Positions 7,277 to 63,724 of a DNA stretch of 64,000 nucleotides are shown in pieces. Position numbers and translations under genes: made by a program. The notes under the pieces were generated by a model that was not told the DNA's origin, searched no databases, and saw nothing but the letters and a program-made list of their open reading frames with translations. Positions within the stretch are counted from its first letter, which is position 1, and every line of letters begins with the position of its first letter. The stretch is taken from assembly GCF_002234675.1 (NCBI RefSeq), contig NC_019862.2, forward strand, positions 17,693,514-17,757,513. Direction: 5' to 3'. The stretch comes from Oryzias latipes (Eukaryota > Chordata > Actinopteri > Beloniformes > Adrianichthyidae).

Positions 7277-27812
<20,536 letters not shown>

Positions 27813-30729: not shown

Positions 30730-30920
30730 GCGCATTAACTTGAGCAGCTATGTTTTCCACGCTAACTGTCTCTGTTTTGCAGATGCAGCGGTGTTGCTTT
30801 TCTTCTGGAATATGTGCTCATATTCACTGTAACTCTGCAGCAGCACGTCAAGTTCAGCTGGCGAAAAATACGCAGACCTCTTTTTTTCACGGTTGCCATG
30901 GTGACTCGTGATATCTGCGC
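30730..30920 (-). pseudogene. Harbinger Myb/SANT-like DNA-binding protein remnant
   Basis: The minus-strand frame contains KKRSAYFSPAELDVLLQSY followed by EYEHIFQKKSNTAASAKQRQ and LAWK, the trihelix/Myb-like domain of the Harbinger accessory protein. Just after LAWK the frame hits a stop, but the +1-shifted reading resumes as NIAAQVNA, the expected end of helix 3. A small frameshift has therefore disabled it. Confidence 0.72.
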
Positions 30921-31245
30921 TCCATTGATAATGGCTTCTTATAGTCGCGGTGCGCACGCTTAACTCCGAATCAGTCCACTCAGAGTTGATTGACCTAACT
31001 CCGATCAGCTTCTCTGAAACAGAAAACTCAGAGTTGTTAATCTCCCGATTGACCAACTCAGAGTTCAAGTTAAACCTCAGAGTTGGTTGAACCTCCTTTC
31101 TGAAACAGGCCCCTGCTGTAGTTGATCGGCAGGAAGAGCTAAAAAAACAGGCTGAGTGGCAGCCCTGCTGTAGAATGTTTCCATGCCGATGTACCTTGGG
31201 TCCCAATTTGATTGCTGTTATCGATATATATTGTTACCATTTCAG

Positions 31246-31348: not shown

Positions 31349-31489
31349 GTAAATGTATTGCTGCTGCTTTTTTTTTTTTTTTTTTTAGCTTGTTTTGTTG
31401 GAACAGCCTGAGGTGATGACAACACAGAAGCTTTGATTAGAGGAGGCATGACTGCATCTATAGACATGTTTAAACAAGAAGGAACTAAA

Positions 31490-31640
31490 ATCTGTGAATT
31501 GGTTCACTGTTGGCACAATGAAGGGTGTAGAGTTCAATGCAGGTGGCAAGTCTGGCTTTTGGGGTGCTAGTGTCTGCCGCTGTGACTTTTGCTTTGAGTT
31601 TTGCCTCCCCTGCACAACCATAAAGCAGGAGGAGGCATAA
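31490..31640 (-). pseudogene. Inverted, decayed fragment of the transposase-like gene's last exon
   Basis: On the minus strand the frame around 31500-31615 reads LAPQKPDLPPALNSTPFIVP, matching QAPQKLDLPASLSSTAFIVP encoded near 38880-38940 on the plus strand. The upstream GGGGAGGCAAA block is also shared. Only about 150 bp aligns by eye. It lies in inverse orientation about 7 kb from the main gene. Confidence 0.75.
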
Positions 31641-32130: not shown

Positions 32131-33109
32131 TTTCTGCTAAAAGTGATCCGCTTTTAAACCAACACTCGTACTCAAGTTGTGAGTGTATACAAAAGAAGTA
32201 GCACAGTTGTTTACGACATTAATCTATATATTTCAACTGTAAGTCAAACATAAATCACTTACAGTTGTTTTGATCTAGTACATTTTAAATTGTTAACTTA
32301 ACTTAATTTTAAATGGTTTACAGTTCAGTTTTTCTCTCATGCTATTTTACATGCTTTGCCCATTCTTGCATATATGTTTCTAGTGGTATACACTAATTAC
32401 TAAAAACAAATTCATATCATTTTTCTCCAGTGTAAATTCTTTGGACGTGACGACTTGAATTAACATTCTGGTCACAGCTCCACAAGGAAAAGGAGTCCAA
32501 CTGCAGTCCCATGTATGGTCAATGGGGACCATAGAAAAAACAAGTTCTATATAAAACGGTGACAACACATTTTTATATTAAAGGCATTCAAAGATGCACT
32601 TTCAGTTTGTAAAACAATCAAAAATAGGACCTACTATTTTATATTGTTTAAAAATTTGGTTTTAAAGAAAAGTTGAAAATTACTTTAGCAAGAGATAAAA
32701 GGAAACAGCCGCTGATGTAAGCCCAAGTGGCTGCCCAGGCCGCTTGTTAGTCAAGCTCAATACTATAACATGGCATCTTATTTTGTTTCATTAATTATGA
32801 TAATAAATGTCGTCTCAACTTTATTTAATAAATCTCCTGATTTTATTATCAAGTATTAAATTCACAAAACTAAATTAAGTAATAAAGGTCCCAAGTTTTT
32901 TTGATTTATTGGCCCAAATTAGATTTTACTCACATTCCATTTCCCCAAGTACAAACAAATAATAAATAAACACATGTCCTTTTGCTCTGCTTTATAATTT
33001 TATTTTTGTGTATGTATCCCCCCTGGCGTTTACTTTGAACAATTGATGTACAGTTTAAAGTTCTTTGTTATTTACTGTATTTTGAATTAACAAAATGTTA
33101 GTCAATCCT

Positions 33110-33342
33110 GGTAATTCTTGGTCGTGATTTGGTCCTCCAATCAGCTTTCTTCTTTCTTCCAAAATCCCGCCCAAGAGTAACCAAGAATTACCCAATCAAA
33201 TGCCAGGATGGACCACCGGAGCGGAAAGGATTGACCAATGAGATCCCAGAAAGAAGAGCACTTCATTTACATCTGCAAACATCGCTAAAACTATATCGGA
33301 GTTAGAGTTGGTCCAATTTTCAACGTTAATCACGACTTTTCA
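33110..33342 (+). promoter_or_regulatory. CCAAT-rich putative promoter and untranslated first exon
   Basis: At least four CCAAT/CCAATC/ATTGG-type motifs (33138, 33193, 33235 and nearby) and a CCCGCCC box cluster here. A strong donor GTAAGT follows at 33343. The segment could be the promoter and non-coding exon 1 of the downstream transposase-like gene. This is inference, with no transcript support. Confidence 0.35.
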
Positions 33343-33411
33343 CAGTAAGTACGGTCTTGTCATTGTGGAATTTATCTTTAAATGTTGTATCGTAATAACA
33401 CGTTTTTGCTG

Positions 33412-33645
33412 AAGGTGTTACCTGTTGTACTCCGATAGATAGAAAGGTTGTTTTCCTTTGGTCATTTTTAGTAGTCCTCCATTGTTGTTCAACCATGCGG
33501 TGTTTTTCCACTAGGAAGTTAGGAACCGTGTAGTAAAACAAGTACATCCTCTTTACTCGAATATGAAAGCTAGGCTAACTGAAATATTAAATGAGCCGAG
33601 CTTTTACCATTGGAGTGTTTTCCACCTATATTTACTAAACGTCAG
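33412..33645 (+). repeat. Flank repeat P, upstream copy
   Basis: The segment from GGTGTTACCTGTTGTACTCC through GTTGTTTTCCTTTGGTCATT to TTTTCCACCTATAT recurs at 39986-40132 and continues at 41417-41470, where it is split by a transposon. Orientation is the same. It lies 5' of the transposase-like gene. Confidence 0.8.
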
Positions 33646-34198
33646 ACCAAAAATAAATTTAGGGGATCAGCTAGCTCAAACAATGACTAACCTGACCTAG
33701 TTTTTACGTGTCGATTACTGCGTCTTTGTGTTTGTTCTTTGCCTTAACCCACGTGTTTTAGCGAGTACTCAGTAACTCACACACGCATGGAGATCACATC
33801 CAAAAATACCTTTAAGTTTTTTTTGTTTTTTTTTATTATTATTTAACGTTTATCTTTTTTTCGGGAATAAATCACACATTGGATCACTTTTTGTTGTCCT
33901 CGAGCTTATGTATTAGGATAATAGTAATTAAAAATAATTTAAACAAATAACATTCACCAAAAAACAAGCAATTGGTATTTATGAACACACACAAAAAAAT
34001 CAAATTAATACAAGTAACTATCCAATCAAATAAAGCCGTATTAAAGCTTTCTTGTAGCATTTTATTTTCTCATCTTGTGTTTGCACAGCTCAGTTTATGA
34101 TTTACAATCTTTACAATCCTCATTGGATTCATTGAGCTTTTATGATGGAACCCAGATTCAGAAGACTTGCAAATGGGATTCTGAATTTGTCAGACTGA

Positions 34199-34879
34199 AG
34201 GCCCGTACACACCGGGACGAATATTCGCCAGGCGTTATTCGCCAGCGTTTTTCGCCACGTCTTTTGTGTTCACACCTAGACGATTTTCGCTGACGATGAG
34301 CCGAGCGAACATGCAATTTCTTTCCCTGACATTAGATGGCGCTTAATGTAAACAGAAATACTCCTGTACACAAGGTGGCGCTGCACAACTTTACGATTCT
34401 TAAAGTCGCTTTTCACTCAGAAGAAGAGAGCAAGTATTTACGCGCTTGTCAGAATCATACAAAGAAAACATGAATATTTCGAGCATCAGTAGCTCCAACT
34501 GGTACTTGGTAAGGGGATATTTAAGAATGTCCGTCATTATTTCTTCGCGGCAGTGTAGACGCTACTTGGCGTCTATCTTCTTCGCTGGTATATGTGCTCA
34601 GCAAGGCAGTTTTGTGTTTGAGCGCCCCCAAGTTGTGTTTTACTGTAACTTCAGAAGCTCCAGACACGTGTGCAAAAGCGCCATTCTCATTGGTCGAATA
34701 GATTTGGACGCGACGCGTCGAGAAAAAAAAAACGAACCCGAGGCGTTTTTTTTTTTTTTTGGCGCTTGGCGTTTTTTCGCCTCGGTGTGCACACTCTCAT
34801 TGGTGCCCTTTGTTTAGTCACGAGGCGTTAAACGTCGGCGAAAATTGCCGGCGAAATTCGTCCCGGTGTGAACAGGCCT
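34199..34879. mobile_element. Non-autonomous DNA transposon with CACACCGGGACGAA ends
   Basis: The left end AGGCCCGTACACACCGGGAC and the right end, reverse-complemented, AGGCCTGTTCACACCGGGAC form imperfect terminal repeats about 680 bp apart, with TTCGCC-rich subterminal repeats. The flanks CTGAAG and TTGAAG may be a degraded target duplication. It carries no transposase. It splits a coding-like block; see the entry at 34914. Confidence 0.7.
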
Positions 34880-34913
34880 TGAAGCGTATTCCTTTAAAAG
34901 GGCTAAACCGTGG

Positions 34914-35451: not shown

Positions 35452-38400
35452 ATGGCATCCTCTTCTTCTCAGACTCCATCAACGTCTAATCCTTCTGCTG
35501 CAAGACCTCCCAGTTCACCACCACATCCCAAAACTCCTCAGCCCATCTCCACCTTGTCTCTCTCTTCCCTTTTGGTTGGAAATTTGGCAAAGGATGAAAA
35601 CATAGACGAAGCTGTAGAAAAGCTCGCATCTCCATTTAAACTCAGACCCTGTATGAAAAAAAATCTATTTTTTTTCTAAACCCCAAATCCCATTGAATCT
35701 TATTGGTAGTGTATGTTTATGCTGTGTTGTTGTTGTTTTTCAGCTTTGATACATTCACGACCGCGTTCCACATCCACAACTTTAAACCAGCCAGCTGGAT
35801 CCCTTTTTTCCTCACCTGCGTTTGTAGGATCCCCCCTTCACCCTCCAAGTGTCAGAAGCCTCCTCCTCTCTCCCAGTAGCAGGACCCTCTTCTCCACACC
35901 CAACTGTGGAAACCTCCATCAATCCTCACAGACACCAACAGCCTTTGGCCCCAAAGCCAGTGAGCAGTTCTCCACCACTGCAGGTCCAAAAACTCTGTCT
36001 TTTCCACCCGTGTCAAGTGAAGTTAACGACAACATGCTCCTGTCAGAAGCGATCAGATGGGACAAATCTCACTCAGCAAGTATGTACATTTTATATCTCA
36101 TTTTTATGCCTTTACTCAAGCATGTACATTTGCTCTTACTGAAAGGGGTTCAAGTGTTCCCGTAAATTATATCTATGCACAATTTCTATTAATAGACTTT
36201 TCCTTGTTTTGTTTTTTTTTCTTCCTCTCAGCACAAAGAGTGTGTCTTCCAGCCGGTTGGCTCCACACACTGCCTGAGGTGGACCAGAGATGGATGTCCA
36301 AAGCTCTTTTCAAATGGACAGCGCAAGGACATCCTGACCTGGACTTCAGCAAGGTGGACAGACTGTGGTGGTATCCTCCGCAAGTCCCCTTGCGCATAAC
36401 AAATGTCCCTCAGCCCGAAGACTATTTTGGCAGTCCCCTCCTTCTTTGGATCCCCCAAAAACTCTGGCAAGTCAAGCTGACATGTCCTCATTCAGATTGC
36501 CATGAAGAGCTTCTGACCTCAGCTGGTCTGCATGAGAAGGTCAGACAAGTTATTTCTCTGGACATAACTTACTTTGTGGCATCTGAGTATTTATTTTGCA
36601 AACGATGCAAAAGAAAGGTCATCAGCTGGAGCCATGCCATCGTCTCCCAGCTGGATGTGGGGCACAGGGGGCAGTTTCCCTGCATCCTCACATCCAAGCT
36701 TGCCTGTGACCTGAGGGTGGTCACTTTGATGCGCCAGAGGGGTCTGGGAAACAGCAGCAGCCAGATTAGGAAGAAGGTGCAGGAGAGTCATTCAGAAGTG
36801 TGGCTGAAGAAGACTGTCCAGTACCTGCAGGACTGCAAACATATCAAAGGGGCTGTTGAAAAGGGTCTGATAAGCCCGGTTACGTTTTCACCTCCCCTTC
36901 CAATGCCTACGGTTCCGGACCACAGGTGGCTGATGCAAGTCTACGCCCAAGATGTTCTCCAGAGGCTGACTGAGGTCAAGGCCTCAGTAACATCAACTTA
37001 TGGACGCATCTTGAAGCTTGCCTCCACCAAGAAAGTGGCTCAGAAAATGGCTGGAAGGGGTTTTGGAACAGCGACCTGGGCAACAAATGTTGGCAATGAG
37101 CACGGCCAAATAATCACGTCTGTGCTCACTGCTAGCGAAGGTTTTGGCTTGGGGCCAATGATAGAAGGGCTAATAAGGAGATATGCAGTGGCTGGGGTAC
37201 CTCCCCCTGAAGTGCTTTACGTCGACAGAGACTGCTGTGGAAACACGCTTCTTCGACGAATGTTCCAGAATTGGAAAGACCTTAACATCCGCCTGGACAT
37301 ATGGCACTTCATGAGAAGGTTTTCGGTGGGCTGCACCACTGATTCACACCAGCTGTATGCATCCTTCATGAGGCGCCTCAGCCACTGTCTCTTTATGTGG
37401 GATGAGGAAGATCTGACAGCCCTCAAGATCGCTAAACGCTCCGAACTGTCTGCCAGGCTCACCAATCCCTCAGAAGCTGATGTGCTGAGGTCCATTAGCC
37501 GCAGTGAGTTAGCCCTGCACTGCAGGAGAACGACACGTGGCTCTCAGGAGACTCTGGCTCTCATCAAAAGCCTCATCCAAGCTTTTGACGGGGACAATGG
37601 CTGCGACACTCTGGGGGTTCCTCTGATCAACTCGGAACGCATGGCTGACATTTTAGCTGCTCAGGCAAAACATGTGGCCTGCATCCAGGATCCCCCAGGC
37701 ATCCAGCTGTACACCAGGATGGGAACAATCCTGAAAGGAGGACATCGTTTGCCCACATACTGCTGTGCCAGAGGTTTAGCATCCCTTAAATCTTTTCATC
37801 TTCACCTAAATAGGTTCATCCCTGGTAAGTTGTTCTATTAGCTTTCCTTAAAACACAAAAATCCTAAAATATTGTAAATATTGAAAGCCATATGTATTTA
37901 TGCATGGAAACATGTGTTTTGTTTTTTCCATGGATATTACAGGCACCCTGGCAAGTGATGTCTTCTTCCAGGCCTACCTGTTAGATGGGCTGGCCAGGTG
38001 GAATGAAGACCGCGCTGTAGCCGCCACATCAGACAAGCAGCAGCCATGCTCCTACGACCATCTCCTGCGGCATGCTGCTAACAGTTTGTCTGAGGAGGTC
38101 CTTGGCCAGGAAATTGTTCCCTATACTGGGCCAAGGAAATACACAGGTGTGAATACTTTTTTTGAAAAGAACTTCAAAACCTTTATTCTTCTTCTAATGA
38201 GTGCTTTGCCTTTTACAGGTGAACTTCTGTGGGTGGAGTACCTTTACCAGCAAACTGGTAAAGTTCTCCAAGATAACCGACAGGCTGTTGAAGAGTCTGA
38301 GACAATGGACATGGAGATTGAAGACAGCTTCAATGAACCCGAAGAGTTTGAAGACTTCACTGTGTCCACTTTGGAGCCAGTGAGGACCTTCACAGTCTCT

Positions 38401-39309
38401 TCAAAGTCGTCCATCAGCAGTCTGTCAGCTCCAGACCCTCAGCCTGGCCCCTCTTGGTCTCCTCCTCCTGCTGAGGGTCCTTTAACGAGCGTGACACACT
38501 CAGCGCCTGGACCTACATCACCATCTCCCTCTTCATCACCTTCCACCACCACCACCTCCGTGCCCCCTTGTGTCTTATCCCCCATTGAACAGAGCAGTGA
38601 GTTTTGTCAAACTTTTCAATTGGAAAAAAATAGAAACAAAAAAGGACCTAGTATGAGTATTTTTATTTTAATTAATTTGTTTTTACAAACTGGGGAGAAA
38701 AAAAACGTCTCGGAGTGTTTTCATTATAACGATGTATCATGTTACCATTTTATTAAGAGATTTCATTTTTCTTTTACAGCTACCAAAAAAGGGACCTTGG
38801 CTGAGCCTCACTTTTTTGTGCCACCACCTAACACTGCTGGGGAGGCAAAGGTCAAACTGGAGCCACAGCTACAGACACAAGCACCCCAAAAGCTGGACTT
38901 GCCCGCTTCATTGAGCTCTACAGCCTTCATTGTGCCATCAGGGTCCACTTCACTGGTTTTGGTTCCACCCATTTTAAACGTCCCCTTCAGTGTCGTCATG
39001 CCTCCTCCTGCTGTGCCGATCAAAGTCTCTTTGCTGCCGTCACCTCAGGCTGCTTCAAACACACCGTACACAACACAACAATACAGAAAGAGGAAAATGG
39101 AAGCAGAAAAAATGGGTGTGGTGAAAAGGAAATACATTAAAAAAACAGATGCCATGACGTGCAGCAAATGTGGTGGAAACAGGCAGCCAACATCCCACCG
39201 TCAGTACTTTGGGAACTGGTTCTGTGAAGCCACTGAGACTCAGTCGTATGACAATTGGAGGGCTGAACTAGAGAAGCGTGGATATGGGAAAAAAAAAGAG
39301 GGAAAATGA
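35452..39309 (+). CDS. Intron-containing transposase-like gene with DUF6729-like zinc ribbon
   Basis: I predict six exons: 35452-35650, 35744-36079, 36232-37824, 37943-38146, 38219-38596, 38780-39309. All are GT-AG with matching phases; the sum is 3240 nt, 1079 aa plus stop. Residues 1-180 and about 780-930 are Ser/Pro/Thr-rich and probably disordered. Residues about 225-380 (WWYPPQVP, LTCPHSDC, FCKRCKRK) resemble the zinc-ribbon DUF6729 family as I remember it. YVDRDCCG (Asp near 510) and LDIWHFMRR (Asp near 534) recall the paired acidic motifs of an RNase-H-like DDE/MULE-type transposase. An acidic stretch follows, then a C-terminal CSKCGG-(x)n-H-(x)n-FC zinc-knuckle-like motif near 1028-1055. 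The ATG at 35452 is in-frame open to an acceptor-like site at 35438, so a further 5' exon is possible. Whether it still moves, is domesticated or is dead cannot be told. Introns 4 (72 bp) and 5 (183 bp) are multiples of three and stop-free, so retention would not break the frame. Confidence 0.72.
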
Positions 39310-39499
39310 CCACCACCACTATAAACAACATGCAGTCCATGCAATATTTTCCAAAGCACCGTTTGTTTTATATTTAATCATTTCTATATAGAGTTTGGTT
39401 TTTGGAAAGAAATTTTTTTTTACTTTTTATTGTCTATAATATTTTAGTGTTTTCTGTAAGAATTACGTTTTTTAAGCTTTTAGTAAGCTTTCTCCTCAA

Positions 39500-39970
39500 A
39501 ATTTGCAATTTCAATACTTAAGGATTTGATTCAAATATAATTATTGAATTTTTAGATAGACAAAGTGATATAGTTACCATTTAGAATGTTTCTTGTCATG
39601 TCTGTTAGAAATATCTGCATTAAAGAAGTTTTACATGAACACTTGAGTATTTTAATTTTATTTCTAATTCTAGAAAAAAGTTTTGTCATGTGTTCATCTT
39701 TTTAATCAGCACTGACATATTTGAATATTTTCAATACATTATATCTAGTTTTTTTTTACATAAATAATGTTTTTTTGTTATTCTGCTGTAGTAAACTAAA
39801 TAGACCAAATTAATTTTGATGCCATTAGGGGCAAAATGTCTTAATTTAAATGTAGTTTTATAGTTGCATTATTAACAAATTTCATGCTATAAGGCCTTCA
39901 CATTTCACACATGGCAGAAGAGATTATGGAAGCCACAAGGCCATGGAAGCTCCTAAATCGTACACATTAA
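39500..39970 (+). repeat. Flank repeat X, first copy
   Basis: From GCAATTTCAATACTTAAGGA through ACACTTGAGTATTTTAATTT to GAAGCTCCTAAATCGTACAC, about 470 bp recur at 41480-41910 in the same orientation. Differences are mainly small indels. The copy follows directly downstream of the transposase-like gene. Confidence 0.88.
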
Positions 39971-39985
39971 ACGCGTGGCTCGGTG

Positions 39986-40132
39986 TTACCTGTCATACTC
40001 CGATAGGTTGTTTTCCTTTGGTCATTTACACTAGTGGTCCTCCATTGTTGTTCAACCTGCAGTATTTTCCACCGTGTAATAAAAAAATTAAATCTTTGAA
40101 CAGAAAAAAGCAAGGCTAACTGGAATATTGAA
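39986..40132 (+). repeat. Flank repeat P, downstream copy, first part
   Basis: GGTGTTACCTGTCATACTCC to GGCTAACTGGAATATTGAA matches 33412-33590. The match breaks at the transposon starting 40133 and resumes at 41417, so P was intact before that insertion. Confidence 0.85.
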
Positions 40133-41416
40133 CAGTGATGAAAGTCTTCCGGGAATTCCCGGAAATCCGGGTTTTTGAGCAAACCGAACGTACTTTCCGG
40201 GAAATAAAGACCTGATCTCTACGGACAAATCGCTTTCCGGATTAAAAAATGGTCTGAAATCAGCTAATTTTAGCTTTATTTTCTATATTTCTCCGCAGAT
40301 CGCTTCCTCTATGGTCGTGGCCATCTCTCGTCTTCCCGGCCTAATTGACCAATGACGGGACGTTTTAGTTGCTTTCGGATGCGTCGACGGGTCTGATTGG
40401 CTCTGTCTGCACCACGTGGTCAGCGTGACTTGCTTCCCTAGAGACCAAAACTGGCGGACCCACGCTAAACTTTCACAAACACATCTGAAGAGTTTGCGAT
40501 CAAATTTGTGTTAAAATAATGGCAGGCATCGTCATTATTGAGCGTGGTCACGACCTCAGTTGTGAGAAGACGATAAAAAACAAATTGAAGTGGTCTTGGC
40601 TGGAAAAAAAAGATTTTTAAGGTAGTGTAGGTCAAATACTTTTTTGTGTAAAATAATCTCAAAACCACATTTTGAAATAATTTCAATTTTAGTTTTGAGT
40701 TTCAGTTTTTATTTTGAATACATTTCTTTATCTAATTTATTTGTATTTCCTAATTACCATGATTTAGTTCAGTATAGTTGACATTAATTATAAGTATTTG
40801 ATGGTTTGGACCCGCACTCCCTTAAAAAATAATGTTTACAATGTTTAGTTTAGTTTGTATGTTTATTTTGATATTTCCCAGATTACTTAGTATTGGTGTT
40901 AAAGAATTGATGTATTATGTTATAGAATTATAGTTTAAAGCAGATCCCATATTTTGATGTAATTATAGTTTGAGAAAACAGTGCAAGTGGATGTTGTACA
41001 TCAGTCATTTCTAAAGCAGAAATAATGTATAAATAACTGAGGTACTTTCATAGAATATCATAGTTACTGGTGTTCTTTTTGCCATTTGGGGCTTTGATGT
41101 TACTATATTTTAGCAATTGTATGTTTTGCAGCTTTGAGGAAAAGCGTAGATTGTAGGATTGTGTTACTTTGAGCAATTTTCCAAATTCTTTTTTAGCACC
41201 AGCAAGTCCTTAATGGAGAGTCAAACTAGGGGTTTGAATGACAAATCATGATGCTCCAATTAGTCTTAGTTTCTTGATAAAGAAGTGAATAACTAGCTGC
41301 CAGAATGCACCAGAATGCATCTAAGACCACGTATTTTTCCAAAATTTTGCTCTGTGCCCGCCATATCGCTCAAAGAAAAGTTCAGGGATTTTTTCCTTGC
41401 CTGACTTTCATCACTG
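40133..41416 (+). mobile_element. 1.28-kb non-autonomous DNA transposon, copy A
   Basis: The ends are CAGTGATGAAAGTC and its reverse complement GACTTTCATCACTG. It is flanked by ATTGAA at 40127-40132 and 41417-41422; the paralogous uninterrupted sequence at 33575-33595 confirms the empty site. The termini look hAT-like, but the duplication reads as 6 bp, not 8. An almost identical copy in reverse orientation lies at 62077-63277. A 73-codon open frame at 40465-40686 (minus) is identical in both copies, but it has no recognisable domain and is likely incidental. Confidence 0.88.
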
Positions 41417-41910
41417 ATTGAATGAACCTAACTTTTACCACAGCAAGCAGGAGTTTTTTTCCACCTATATCATTTAAAATGTGCAATTTCAATACTTAAG
41501 GAAAAAATAATTTTTTTATATAAGAATTTTTAGCTAGACACTGTCTTATGGTTGCCATTTAGAATGTGTTTTGTCACGTCTGTGAGAAATCTCTTTGCAT
41601 TAAAGATCTTTTACATGAGCACTTGAGTATTTTAATTTTATTTCTAATTTAAAAAAAGTTGTTTGTCATATGTGTTCACCTTTTTTATCAGTATTGACAT
41701 ATTTGAATATTGTCAATACATTACATCTGTAGGTTTTTTACAAGAATATTTTTTTAATGTATTTCTTTCTTATTTTTTTATTATTCTACTGTCATATGCA
41801 ACATTTCTTAATTTAGTTTATATTTCTTTCATTAACAAATCTCATGCTATAAGGTCTGCATATTTCACACATTGCAGAAGAGATCATGGAAGCTCCTAAA
41901 TCGTACACGT
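41417..41910 (+). repeat. Rest of flank repeat P joined directly to second copy of flank repeat X
   Basis: 41417-41472 continues P (compare 33590-33645, TTTTCCACCTATAT). From about 41480, X begins again (GCAATTTCAATACTTAAGG) and ends with GAAGCTCCTAAATCGTACAC near 41910. The coding body that lies between P and X in the main copy is missing here. Confidence 0.8.
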
Positions 41911-41945
41911 TTAATGCGGGGCTCGAACTCGCGGCTTGTAGGTAT
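41908..41945 (-). pseudogene. tRNA T-arm-like remnant
   Basis: On the minus strand GCCGCGAGTTCGAGCCCCGC has the TTCGA loop and a flanking stem of a tRNA 3' half. The 5' half is not recognisable. It abuts the end of repeat X. Confidence 0.3.
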
Positions 41946-42130
41946 GTTTTAGCAAAGTTGGAAACTTTACATCGACTTATGGGCGCTTATCTTTTCTGTT
42001 TGTATTTGCATTTGACCACCCAGCTAAAATTGGTCTTAACAAGTTTGCTTTGATTTAATGAATTTATATACTCACTAACTGGCGAATAAAAGTAACACTG
42101 AACCGTATTAAATAAAAAAGCGAAAAAAAT

Positions 42131-42201
42131 CGAGCCAGCCAGGAATCGAACCCAGAATCTACTGGTCCGTAGTCAGACGCGTTACCCGCTGTGACAAAAG
42201 T
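42131..42201 (-). pseudogene. Decayed tRNA-Arg(ACG) copy
   Basis: The minus-strand reading keeps the anticodon arm (CTGACTACGGACCAG) and T arm (GGGTTCGATTCCTGGCTGGC) of the adjacent functional tRNA-Arg. The acceptor 5' strand and D arm are lost (CTTTTGTCACAGCGGG in place of GGGCCAGTGGCGCAATGG). It is a tandem duplicate that has decayed. Confidence 0.8.
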
Positions 42202-42274
42202 CGAGCCAGCCAGGAGTCGAACCTAGAATCTTCTGATCCGTAGTCAGACGCGTTATCCATTGCGCCACTGGCCC
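42202..42274 (-). tRNA. tRNA-Arg (anticodon ACG)
   Basis: The 73-nt reading begins GGGCCAGTGGCGCAATGGAT, has the loop CTACGGA (anticodon ACG, read as ICG) between TCTGA and TCAGA, a T arm with GGTTCGACTCC, and ends TGGCTGGCTCG. It matches the vertebrate tRNA-Arg-ACG pattern almost base for base. An internal A box and B box are present. A TTTT run lies just downstream on the minus strand. Confidence 0.95.
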
Positions 42275-42449
42275 GGTGAGGACACCACAGAACACAGCTA
42301 CCGCTAAATTCACACCACTGGCTCTATCTATATGTATATTTATTATTATACATCAATATATCTATAAATATATATTTGTGTGTGTTCAGTATAGTAAAAG
42401 CTGATAAGTTATGTATAAACGAGACCACAAAGGGCTAAATAAAAAGATC

Positions 42450-42649: not shown

Positions 42650-42722
42650 TGCCCCGTGTGAGGCTCGAACTCACGACCTTCAGATTATGAGACTGACGCG
42701 CTGCCAACTGCGCCAACGAGGC
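42650..42722 (-). tRNA. tRNA-Met, elongator (anticodon CAT)
   Basis: The 73-nt reading starts GCCTCGTTGGCGCAGTTGGC, has the loop CTCATAA with anticodon CAT between TCAGT and TCTGA-type pairing, a T arm GTGAGTTCGAGCCTCAC, and ends GGGGCA. It closely matches vertebrate elongator tRNA-Met. Internal promoter boxes are intact, and TTTT follows on the minus strand. Confidence 0.95.
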
Positions 42723-45711: not shown

Positions 45712-47741
45712 AGAAAAACGGACAGGAGAATGTGCGATTCTTTCCTGGAATGTCTGTCAGTTTTTAAGGTGCTACTATAATTAACGCTCCGCTTCAATTT
45801 TTCAGGAGGATGATGTTGGGAATTTACAGTTGGCGTGGGAGATGCTGGAGGTCGCCAAACTGATCTATAAAAGGTAAATTGATGGTTTAAAAAATGAGCA
45901 TTTTTCTGTCAACAAATGAGCCTGAAATCATCTTTGTAACATTCAGAAAAGAAGGAAAAGAGGAGCAGCTGATGGCAGCTCAGGCTCATCTGAAGCTGGG
46001 AGAAGTTGGTGCTGAAACAGGTGAGCTGCACAAAGCTCGACTTTACGCTTGACTTTTTCAAATATTCACATTTGACCTTTTTTTGGGGGTGTTTCTTTTG
46101 TTTTAGGGAACTATCCCCAGGCTCTGGAAGACTTCCAGGAATGTTTGGCCATCCAGCTGCAGCACTTGCCTCCTCACAGTCGTCTACTTGCTGAGACTCA
46201 CTACCATGTCGCTACAACACTCTGCTACATGGATGAGTACAGACAGGCCATCCAGCACTACAACAGTTCCATAGAAGTCATCGAAAACCGCCTGTGTGAG
46301 ACATTAGTTTGTTTTTATGCTTTGTCTCAGAGCTTCGTGCTGTTGATGTGTTTAATCTGTGACCGTTGTGATGAGCAGCCGTGCTACAGAAGGCGATCGA
46401 CGCAGCAGAAGGAGACGGCGGTGCAGCAGAGGAGAAGAGCGAGATGGAAGAGCTCAAACAACTTTTGCCGGAAATCAGAGAAAAGGTGGAAGACGCCAAA
46501 GAGAGCCTGAGGACAGCCAGCGCCGCGTCGCAGGCCATCCAGCAGACGCTCGTGAGTATGGACAGAGTGGTGTGTAGAGGCTGTTTGCGTGGATCTAAAG
46601 TAAAAAAACAAAAATGTCATGCAGGGTGGAACCTCGTCTTCATCAGCATTCCTCCGTGAAAACGGCGGGCCTTCGTCTTCAACGGCAGCTTTTGCAGAAA
46701 GTAGCCAGGTGAGGTCGCCTGCTGTTTGTGGTGGATTTGTAGTAAAACTAACATTAAGTTTTATCGTAGCTTAAAAAATTGTATTCCTTTTTTTGTTTTT
46801 AGGATCCAGGGAAATGTGACAGCAGCTCCTCTTCCAAAGCGGCGTCGGACATCTCTCATCTCGTCAGGAAAAAGGTGAAGACCCACCAGGCTGCAGTCGT
46901 GTGTACAATTTGTTGCTTTTCTTAAATGCTAAACATTTCTTCATTGTTCAGCTCCTCCACCTCTGATTCAGCGTCTTATTGCTGCAGGGTAGTGTGGGTT
47001 TATTTATGTTCCAGGTTTTGCTTTCAATCATTATGGCTTTTGTCTTCAGCCTGTTATGCCTTGTGTGATCGCTGCAGTGTCATGTGCTGGTTTTTGTGAC
47101 TTTGTTTGGAGGCCGAGTCTCTACTGTTATATATTTTTCTTTATTATAATGGCTCTGAGGTTGCCATATAAAAATGAATTCCAGTAGCCTTCAGTCTTCC
47201 ATTCCTGCCTTGTTTCCACACAGAGGAAACCAGAAGAAGAGAAGCCAGTAAAGGACGCAGATGCTAAGCAAGCAAAACAGGAAGTCTCAGTAAATTGCAG
47301 CGATGATTCTAGTGCCAGCAATGGAGTCCAGGAGGAGAAATCACAGGAGGCGAGTGATAGGCCTTTTTCTTTGACTGTTGCTGTGAAACTATGAAGCTAT
47401 GAGTAACTGCTTGTCTGAGGCGGGACGGCCCCAGTTGATGACTGCATGTAGTTCCCAGTGGACTTTCTGCATTTTGGCCGCTTTTTTTCTCTTCAGGACA
47501 GTCTCTGACTCCGTGGTGATCATGGAAGTAATAATTGGTGGTTTTAAGTTCTAAACCTGTGGTTTTCATTTTATTTATTTTTGAACAGTGATCCGCAAAT
47601 CATTTGAGGGTTTTTTTTGTCTTTAAGACTAAGTTTGATTCCTTTTTCTCTCCTACATAAAGTGGTCTCTCCATTAAACTGGATGGTGTCTTCCTTCTGC
47701 AGGCTCCCACCCAGTCGGCCTCTGTGGAGTCTTCAGCGTGA
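43275..47741 (+). CDS. nasp: Nuclear autoantigenic sperm protein (NASP), H3-H4 histone chaperone
   Basis: NASP stores H3-H4 and linker histones and escorts them to chromatin assembly in the nucleus. Fifteen coding exons: 43275-43312, 43670-43717, 43792-43905, 44020-44100, 44849-44955, 45174-45491, 45661-45731, 45806-45873, 45947-46020, 46107-46295, 46379-46551, 46625-46708, 46803-46874, 47224-47349, 47703-47741. All phases match; 1602 nt, 533 aa. Family signatures: [18 protein letters not shown] and [20 protein letters not shown] (first TPR, exons 3-5), a long Glu/Asp-rich insert (exons 5-7) ending in poly-Asp from GAT repeats, [19 protein letters not shown] and the following TPRs (exons 8-10), a coiled-coil [19 protein letters not shown] (exon 11), and [17 protein letters not shown] with the nuclear signal (exons 13-14). 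Length lies between mammalian somatic (about 450) and testis (about 790) forms. Introns 2 and 14 appear to use GC donors. Exon 7's donor (GTGCGA) is weak. Confidence 0.95.
44610..44745. mobile_element. MITE fragment, inverted copy of the TTAA family
   Basis: Reverse-complemented, 44690-44743 begins GTCCCACTTCAATCATTTTT, then GAGCCATTTTAAAAGAC, matching the left end of the copy at 10728. It lies in a NASP intron. The other end is decayed. Confidence 0.6.
45670..45712 (+). repeat. GAT trinucleotide repeat in NASP coding exon
   Basis: A run of GAC/GAT codons in exon 7 encodes poly-Asp inside the acidic histone-binding insert, with the last eight or so codons identical GAT. Such a run is likely to vary in length between individuals. 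Confidence 0.9.
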
Positions 47742-62076: not shown

Positions 62077-63277
62077 CAGTGATGAAAGTCAGGCAAGGAA
62101 AAAATCCCTGAACTTTTCTTTGAGCGATATGGCGGGCACAGAGCGAAATTTTGGAAAAATACGTGGTCTTAGATGCATTCTGGTGCATTCTGGCAACTAG
62201 TTATTCACTTCTTTATCAAGAAACTAAGACTAATTGGAGCATCATGATTTGTCATTCAAACCCCTAGTTTGACTCTCCATTAAGGACTTGCTGGTCCTAA
62301 AAAAGAATTTGGAAAATTGCTCAAAGTAACACAATCCTACAATCTACGCTTTTCCTTAAAGCTGCAAAACATACAATTGCTAAAATATAGTAACATCAAA
62401 GCCCCAAATGGCAAAAAGAACACCAGTAACTATGATATTCTATGAAAATACCTCAGTTATTTATACATTATTTCTGCTTTAGAAATGACTGATGTACAAC
62501 ATCCACTTGCACTGTTTTCTCAAACTATAATTACATCAAAATATGGGATCTGCTTTAAACTATAATTCTATAACATAATACATCAATTCTTTAACACCAA
62601 TACTAAGTAATCTGGGAAATATCAAAACAAACATACAAACTAAACTAAACATTGTAAACATTATTTTTTAAGGGAGTGCGGGTCCAAACCATCAAATACT
62701 TATAATTAATGTCAACTATACTGAACTAAATCATGGTAATTAGGAAATACAAATAAATTAGAGAAATGTATTCAAAATAAAAACTGAAACTCAAAACTAA
62801 AATTGAAATTATTTCAAAATGTGGTTTTGAGATTATTTTACACAAAAAAGTATTTGACCTACACTACCTTAAAAATCTTTTTTTTCCAGCCAAGACCACT
62901 TCAATTTGTTTTTTATCGTCTTCTCACAACTGAGGTCGTGACCACGCTCAATAATGACGATGCCTGCCATTATTTTAACACAAATTTGATCGCAAACTCT
63001 TCAGATGTGTTTGTGAAAGTTTAGCGTGGGTCCGCCAGTTTTGGTCTCTAGGGAAGCGAGTCACGCTAACCACGTGGTGCAGACAGAGCCAATCAGACCC
63101 GTCGACGCATCCGAAAGCAACTAAAACGTCCCGTCATTGGTCAATTACGCCGGGAAGACGAGAGATGGCCACGACCATAGAGGAAGCGATCTGCGGAGAA
63201 ATATAGAAAATAAAGCTAAAATTTGCTGATTTCAGACCATTTTTTAATCCGGAAAGCGATTTGTCCGTAGAGATCAG
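62077..63277 (-). mobile_element. 1.28-kb DNA transposon, copy B (reverse orientation), split
   Basis: It starts CAGTGATGAAAGTCAGGCAA, the right end of copy A, and is nearly identical to copy A in reverse, including the same 73-codon open frame (62803-63024). It stops at GAGATCAG, where a Harbinger element begins. The missing outer end is found inverted at 63647-63724. Confidence 0.88.
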
Positions 63278-63646
63278 GGGCCTCATTTATAAAACTTTGC
63301 GAAGGATTTGCGTCAGAAATGGCGTACGGATGAAACATAGGACGTGCGTACGCAAAGAAATATTCGGATTTATAAAACCGTGCGCACGCACATCCTGCCC
63401 ATCTTTCCCTTAATAAATCACAACCGATTCTAAATGCAGCGCAGCTTTTTGCGGCTTCATGACACGCCCATATTTGTCCATAAATAGTCCGTGAAACGCC
63501 CACAAATGAATATTCATTGATTGCGGAACCATGGCAATCACAGAGAGGAAATGAAAAAAACGTAACTTCACTCAATGTGAAGTAGAAGTTATCGTTGGCG
63601 AGGTGGAAAAGAGGAGAAAAGTGTTGTTTGGAGGGCACTTCGCAGA
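63278..63646 (+). mobile_element. PIF/Harbinger element, left part with Myb-like gene start
   Basis: It begins GGGCCTCATTTATAAA, directly after CAG. It contains ATG at 63531, then MAITERK, a stop, KKRNFTQCEVEVIVGEVEKR and RKVLFGGH, the Myb/SANT-like accessory protein of Harbinger with one internal stop. It ends abruptly at 63646. Confidence 0.72.
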
Positions 63647-63724
63647 GATGAAAGTCTTCCGGGAATTCCCGGAAATCCGGGTTTTTGAGCTAACCGAACG
63701 TACTTTCCGGGAAATAAAGACCTG
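63647..63724 (+). mobile_element. Inverted outer end of transposon copy B
   Basis: GATGAAAGTCTTCCGGGAAT to AAATAAAGACCTG is identical (one or two changes) to the left end of copy A at 40137-40213, but lies in the opposite orientation to the rest of copy B. Confidence 0.85.

Follow-up and report, generated by a model that had tools for sequence, protein, structure and literature searches.

The stretch of DNA analyzed here (the window) comprises 64,000 nucleotides of contig NC_019862.2 of the medaka, Oryzias latipes, and all coordinates refer to it unless another contig is named. On its plus strand, at 35452-39309, lies a gene that is very likely the transposase gene of a DNA transposon of the Dada superfamily, present as a defective copy, a relic. 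The six exons are separated by five introns, each with GT-AG borders and in phase 1, and the spliced product runs to 1079 amino acids before a stop codon. Exons 1 to 5 have identical boundaries in three sister copies (C6a, C6b, and C10), and the exon 6 acceptor sits at the equivalent alignment position in all three. The exon 3 donor dinucleotide is altered in C6b. The exon 6 region of the sisters is longer than that of the window copy by ~1.1 to 1.2 kb (1,067 to 1,188 gap columns), which may reflect a loss from the window copy or a gain in the sisters.

Exon 3 matches the Pfam family PF20499 (DUF6729) over its full length (E = 1.5e-88; profile positions 1 to 229 of 229). The domain spans residues ~188 to 421, immediately N-terminal to the catalytic core, and holds a four-cysteine (CCCC) zinc ribbon made up of C263, C268, C301, and C304 (C-x4-C ... 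C-x2-C). A zinc knuckle of the cysteine-cysteine-histidine-cysteine (CCHC) type follows near the C terminus (C1031, C1034, H1043, and C1052). A preliminary description of this DNA had proposed a phase-consistent, transposase-like gene of six exons with a DUF6729-like ribbon and a C-terminal knuckle, and on these points it was correct. The Pfam scan covered two long frames (exon 3, and exons 4 to 6 read through their introns). DUF6729 was the sole family above the cutoff, and the other match listed up to E = 10 was a subthreshold one to LANA1. Of the profiles considered in the preliminary description, DUF6729 was thus present, and MULE and KDZ/Zisupton were absent from the frames scanned; these two and Kolobok were set aside as affiliations. 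Pfam states no function for PF20499, and no paper mentioning the domain turned up in the literature collection searched. Patterns taken from the exon 3 peptide had no match in viral contigs, and a sequence search of the PDB with the protein gave no match at E <= 1.

Related copies and their insertion into tRNA genes

A DUF6729 profile search of the genome (734 Mb, 25 contigs) returned 69 matched stretches, 34 of them with in-frame stops; only four, including the window copy, cover the whole profile free of stops. Three copies, of which two lie on C6 and the third on C10, have >7 kb in common at ~98% identity. These sisters share a start, TGGCGC followed by CCCCGGCCGC, and the C6 copies are arranged in tandem with TGGCGC in between. 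The C10 element is 7,901 bp long and carries TTGGCGC on both sides. Its joined flanks fold as a tRNA and align to two intact tRNA-Leu(TAA) genes from an array on the same contig; in this alignment the anticodon arm is broken by the insertion and part of it is replaced. When 40, 100, and 250 bp of the C10 ends were compared in inverted orientation, no inverted repeat scored above shuffled sequence. The sisters are themselves damaged: the core of C6a is interrupted by a stop, and exon 2 of C6c contains a frameshift.

The C10 insertion, at ~27.700 to 27.708 Mb of that contig, occupies the anticodon arm in the orientation opposite to the tRNA gene, with the anticodon segment replaced. The same contig has a tandem array of tRNA-Leu genes (C10:27197687-27228304) with a period of ~410 bp, in which CAA and TAA anticodons occurred in the two stretches read.

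Two DUF6729 copies on C13 (L034 and L035) are 99.7% identical over 6.7 kb, and because of this identity these Dada-tV-like copies appear to have been mobile recently. Further matches that score as high as these, or nearly so, lie on C13, C14, and C24. One end of one copy adjoins, in a by-eye reading, half of a tRNA-Gly-GCC gene, and one end of the other adjoins a tRNA-Val-like half. Medaka Dada-tV has been reported as five full-length copies in tRNA-Val, tRNA-Gly, and a hAT element (PMC8869645). The C13 family fits the published Dada-tV_OL, and this ties DUF6729 to Dada.

The original description attributes to Dada a CCCC finger, a DDE (aspartate-aspartate-glutamate) triad accompanied by DxxH, a C-terminal CCHC finger, and transposase genes that carry introns, those of Perkinsus excepted (PMC3706591). 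It also reports that the elements lack terminal inverted repeats, are flanked by target copies of 6 to 7 bp within small RNA genes, and occur in tandem with target sequence between the copies. The superfamily was later divided into 12 target groups, with replaced target copies among its traits (PMC8869645), and several lineages from medaka appear in the two papers (PMC3706591, PMC8869645). We file the element family as Dada. Because the DDE triad is broken in the window copy, that copy is, on present assignments, a defective descendant and not a working Dada transposase.

Putative catalytic residues

The DDE triad is complete in C6a, C6b, and C10 (D at 442, D at 510, and E at 698), whereas the window copy has Ala at 442 and Lys at 698 and retains D510. 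Residues at 442 and 698 were compared in rows from which 12 loci repeating the same places had been excluded, near-identical rows being kept (L009-L011, L019/L020, and L034/L035). Asp occupied position 442 in 21 of the 27 rows having a residue there; the six with another residue (L005, L008, L016, L019, L053, and L055) all have stops in their matched pieces. At 698, Glu was found in 16 of 17 rows, and an aligned Dada-tV-like copy has Glu there as well.

The spacing from 442 to D510 is 68 residues and that from D510 to 698 is 188. In the published account of Dada-U6_DR, the first interval is also 68 (D567 and D635) and the second is 176 (PMC3706591). The ribbon cysteines of that protein are given as C389, C394, C429, and C432, and the gap from the second Cys to the His of its CCHC finger is one residue longer than in the window protein. 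Position and conservation together suggest catalytic roles for 442, 510, and 698, and conservation and spacing would make E698 the third catalytic residue. We had also considered E647 for this role; it was dropped, as this position is Leu in L013, L014, L019, and L020 and Ala in C10. The preliminary description tentatively took two Asp motifs as the catalytic core. Both were misassigned: VDRDCCG carries the second catalytic Asp (D510), and LDIWHF is the DxxH motif (D534-I-W-H537). Because two of the three assigned catalytic residues are lost, the window copy should not be autonomous.

Frame integrity and selection

Exon 2 has an extra C in the run at 35831-35836 and lacks a base near 35925, which places ~30 codons out of frame. 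This shift is seen relative to five copies (C6a, C6b, C10, C7, and C18), and a sixth, C6c, is itself frameshifted. The frame called intact in the preliminary description is open but not pristine, given this segment and the D442A and E698K replacements.

To count changes by branch, we compared the window copy with these six copies over 718 codons of exons 3 to 5, excluding codons that were gapped in the window copy or for which the majority of C6 and C10 copies showed a gap or a stop. Among 92 differences, 56 fell on the window branch (38 replacement and 18 silent), 15 on that of the sister clade (3 and 12), and 21 were ambiguous (8 and 13). The neutral expectation for the window branch was ~39 replacement and 14 silent changes plus 2 stops, which does not differ significantly from what was observed (P = 0.37); a stricter count, of changes that no other copy shares, was 40:11 (P = 0.43). 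The neutral fractions were derived from exon 3 of C10 alone, and the polarized counts concern exons 3 to 5. The replacement-to-silent ratios of the window and sister-clade branches differ from each other (P = 0.0012). A neutral-like window branch next to a constrained sister branch fits a copy released from selection.

A mosaic center

Divergence from C10, measured in 150-bp steps, is 0 to 10% per step in the center of the window copy and ~9 to 27% outside it, with breakpoints near 36.1 to 36.2 kb and 38.58 to 38.6 kb. By region, divergence of the window copy from C10 amounts to 18.6% for the 5' part, 12.1% for exons 1 and 2, 4.2% for the center, and 20.2% for exon 6 plus the 3' untranslated region (UTR). 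For C18, the corresponding values are 10.0%, 6.3%, and 9.6%, the fourth region being absent from that copy. By these divergences, the 5' end of the window copy falls outside C18 and its center falls inside.

It is possible that the low divergence of the center reflects coding constraint, with no exchange between copies. Exon 4 is the same as that of C10 at 204 of 204 aligned positions, apart from a single gap of 3 bp, and the difference in exon 3 is 4.6%, as constraint would have it. However, the introns inside the center (3 and 4) are conserved as well, with 10 differences in 190 positions versus 75 in 405 for introns 1, 2, and 5 outside it (P = 7.6e-6), and exon 6, though coding, differs by 17%. 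Nor would constraint account for the reversal along the element: of C18 and the window copy, C18 is the nearer to C10 at the 5' end and in exons 1 and 2, and the farther from it in the center. We therefore consider constraint alone very unlikely, and exchange between copies appears to explain the mosaic divergence better.

Element boundaries and neighborhood

The element 5' terminus aligned to that of C10 with a score of 38, compared with a maximum of 22 in 300 shuffles, and is the best match in the whole window. The gene thus lies inside a larger element, whose ends are recognizable at 32728 and 41986; the transposon origin proposed in the preliminary description was right. The 3' one belongs to a second tandem Dada copy, of which pieces alone remain (Table 1). 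The 5' region is interrupted by a 683-bp insert resembling a miniature inverted-repeat transposable element (MITE). This insert occurs at 39 other places at 97 to 98% identity (the best 40 of 2,470 candidates scored). It represents a recent MITE burst and sets only a recent minimum age.

Table 1. Positions of the gene, its parts, and neighboring features in the window
Feature	Position	Strand	Basis or remark
Exon 6 debris of another Dada copy	31396..31614	-	
Dada element 5' terminus: decayed target copy TGGCTG, then CCCAGGCCGC	32728..32761	+	Local alignment to C10 5' end
Element 5' noncoding part	33133..34196	+	72.5% to C10 element positions 92-1236
MITE-like inverted-repeat element, 683 bp, not part of Dada	34198..34880	.	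Inverted arms at both ends; breaks sister alignment
Exon 1	35452..35650	+	Splicing, sister alignment
Exon 2, with +1/-1 pair	35744..36079	+	Splicing, sister alignment
Mosaic center, approximate bounds	36184..38583	+	Divergence from C10 in 150-bp steps
Exon 3: DUF6729, CCCC ribbon, core positions 442 (A), 510 (D), 534/537 (DxxH), 698 (K)	36232..37824	+	
Codon 442, Ala	37020..37022	+	First catalytic Asp in sister copies
Codon 510, second catalytic Asp, retained	37224..37226	+	
DxxH motif D534/H537, retained	37296..37307	+	
Codon 698, Lys	37788..37790	+	Putative third catalytic residue, Glu in 16/17 rows
Exon 4	37943..38146	+	Splicing, sister alignment
Exon 5	38219..38596	+	Splicing, sister alignment
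Exon 6 with CCHC knuckle (39160-39225) and stop codon	38780..39309	+	
3' UTR and 3' region of gene-bearing copy, stopping short of element end	39310..39982	+	68-77% to C10 in pieces to position 7783
Second tandem Dada copy, remnant (element positions 419-581)	39982..40126	+	74.2%
Second tandem Dada copy, 3' end, ending TGGGCGC	41476..41986	+	Alignment; terminal part 41915-41986
tRNA-Arg(ACG) gene, TGGCGC after first stem, near element	42200..42275	-	
tRNA-Met gene	42650..42722	-	

Judged by eye, the flanks of the window element contain no recognizable tRNA gene, and the tRNA-Arg and tRNA-Met genes lie <1 kb away. An incomplete duplicate of the adjacent tRNA-Arg gene occupies 42122-42192 and ends, again by eye, near tRNA position 14; a site around that position is close to the insertion site of several Dada lineages. 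Two reverse-strand frames, 39967-40218 and 63219-63689, have the peptide LKNPDFREFPEDFH in common, a sign that the second Dada remnant overlaps with a repeat of a different family. Also on the minus strand, the open frame at 30751-31233 encodes a Myb/SANT-like domain (PF13873; E = 4e-6) and is perhaps a remnant of a Harbinger element. The locus is bracketed by exons of a glypican gene (21506-22105, minus strand) and of an SHNi-TPR gene (46076-46507, plus strand), the latter of which we take to be NASP-like, and both are usable as synteny markers.

A probable disarmed relic and its alternatives

Taken together, we read the locus as most likely a dying transposon rather than a new gene. Published work describes an active Dada transposase as a DDE enzyme; insertion of its element is directed to specific small RNA genes and produces target copies of 6 to 7 bp. 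The zinc-binding N-terminal part of the enzyme probably assists in DNA binding. The window copy sits in a decayed array of Dada copies beside tRNA genes, and its central exons were probably exchanged with the lineage of the C6 and C10 copies, as the mosaic divergence suggests. Ala in place of the first catalytic Asp and Lys in place of the conserved Glu would disarm it, if position and conservation are a sound guide to their role. Its frame would then be open mainly because no stop has struck yet, and a protein still made from it could at most bind DNA, its catalytic activity being lost.

Several observations weigh against a relic, and some of them would suit a host gene. There is no stop and no uncompensated frameshift across the 1079 codons, and for 56 neutral changes in the tract the probability of no stop is 0.11, or less if neutrality extends to the older changes of exons 1, 2, and 6. 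The zinc ligands, the second catalytic Asp, the DxxH motif, and all splice sites are retained. The pairwise ratio of replacement to silent divergence (dN/dS) against C10 is <1 for the whole frame (0.055/0.13-0.15), for exon 3 (0.03/0.09-0.10), and for exon 6 (about 0.12/0.43-0.46), and exon 3 differences lean toward weakly conserved sites (27 of 36, versus 293 of 520 sites; P = 0.023). With 36 of the 718 tract codons changed, the post hoc probability that two of the three catalytic residues would be replaced is 0.7%, a value that could mean that selection favored the loss of catalysis. In addition, the copy's own target copies are unequal (TGGCTG versus TGGGCGC), and the Dada assignment was made by published descriptions. 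The open frame with intact splice sites and zinc ligands, the paired catalytic replacements, the distribution of differences, and the dN/dS values all agree with a domesticated, catalytically dead Dada protein that the medaka keeps for DNA binding after the loss of catalysis. It would parallel dDada of cyprinoids, which also has mutated catalytic residues (PMC8869645).

We nevertheless regard domestication, which the preliminary description had suggested as a recent event, as unlikely. The changes on the window branch fit neutrality, while the sister-clade branch is strongly constrained (3:12); exon 2 contains a compensated frameshift; and tandem remnants and element ends still surround the gene. 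The catalytic changes also differ in kind, since the window copy has one D and the E changed and retains DxxH, whereas dDada often has both D residues mutated and carries DxxQ (PMC8869645). The hints of constraint do not show domestication, because changes that preceded the death of the copy would have been constrained too: the path between the window copy and C10 includes time as an active transposon, and the 36 exon 3 differences are unpolarized, being counted versus C10. Fully conserved exon 3 sites show no significant deficit of differences (2 of 62 versus 34 of 458; P = 0.29). An elaborated form of the same idea seems similarly improbable, namely, that an independently domesticated, dead transposase of the medaka still recognizes tRNA-gene sequence, was built by exchange between two Dada lineages, and constitutes a second case after dDada. 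The other suggestion of the preliminary description, an autonomous element of a little-described superfamily, was half right. The superfamily is Dada, published in 2013 and 2022; autonomy fails on the loss of two of the three assigned catalytic residues. That an intact element is mobile now is hardly credible, despite the open frame, the gene structure, and the recognizable ends, in view of D442A and E698K, the decay of the ends, the rearrangement of the 3' side with the second copy, and the MITE-like sequence that interrupts the 5' region. To the extent that the catalytic assignment is right, the sequence excludes an active autonomous element.

What is new here is the individual copy and the link between DUF6729 and Dada; in kind, a relic such as this is ordinary. 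DUF6729 gains a function by context, as the N-terminal, ribbon-bearing part of a Dada transposase. The dying-transposon reading further implies that neither activity nor domestication follows from an open frame and correct splicing in a transposon gene, as this copy is without two catalytic residues and has recent changes of neutral appearance. Were it domesticated after all, it would be a second Dada-derived host gene.

Comparison with known Dada elements

One parallel to the state of the window copy is dDada, a domesticated Dada-U6 of Cyprinoidei, which likewise has a Dada-derived frame with replaced catalytic residues (PMC8869645). Transcripts of dDada are reported from six fish families and its locus is confirmed in three species, with DxxQ in place of DxxH. 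The window copy departs from Dada proper in the Ala and Lys at two catalytic positions, the out-of-frame segment of exon 2, the mosaic center, and the decay of its ends. As for lineage, the published target of Dada-tR and Dada-tN is TGGCGC, as carried by the sister ends, and Dada-tL, like the C10 sister, occupies the anticodon arm of tRNA-Leu and runs opposite to the gene, both being resemblances in features. Table 1 of PMC8869645 marks tR for Adrianichthyidae and leaves tL and tN unmarked, in contrast to the C10 copy in tRNA-Leu. With Dada as a whole, the family shares an intron-bearing transposase with a CCCC finger, a D-D-E core with DxxH, and a CCHC finger. It also shares the 7-bp target copies of the C10 sister within a tRNA gene, the lack of terminal inverted repeats, and the tandem arrangement of the C6 copies.

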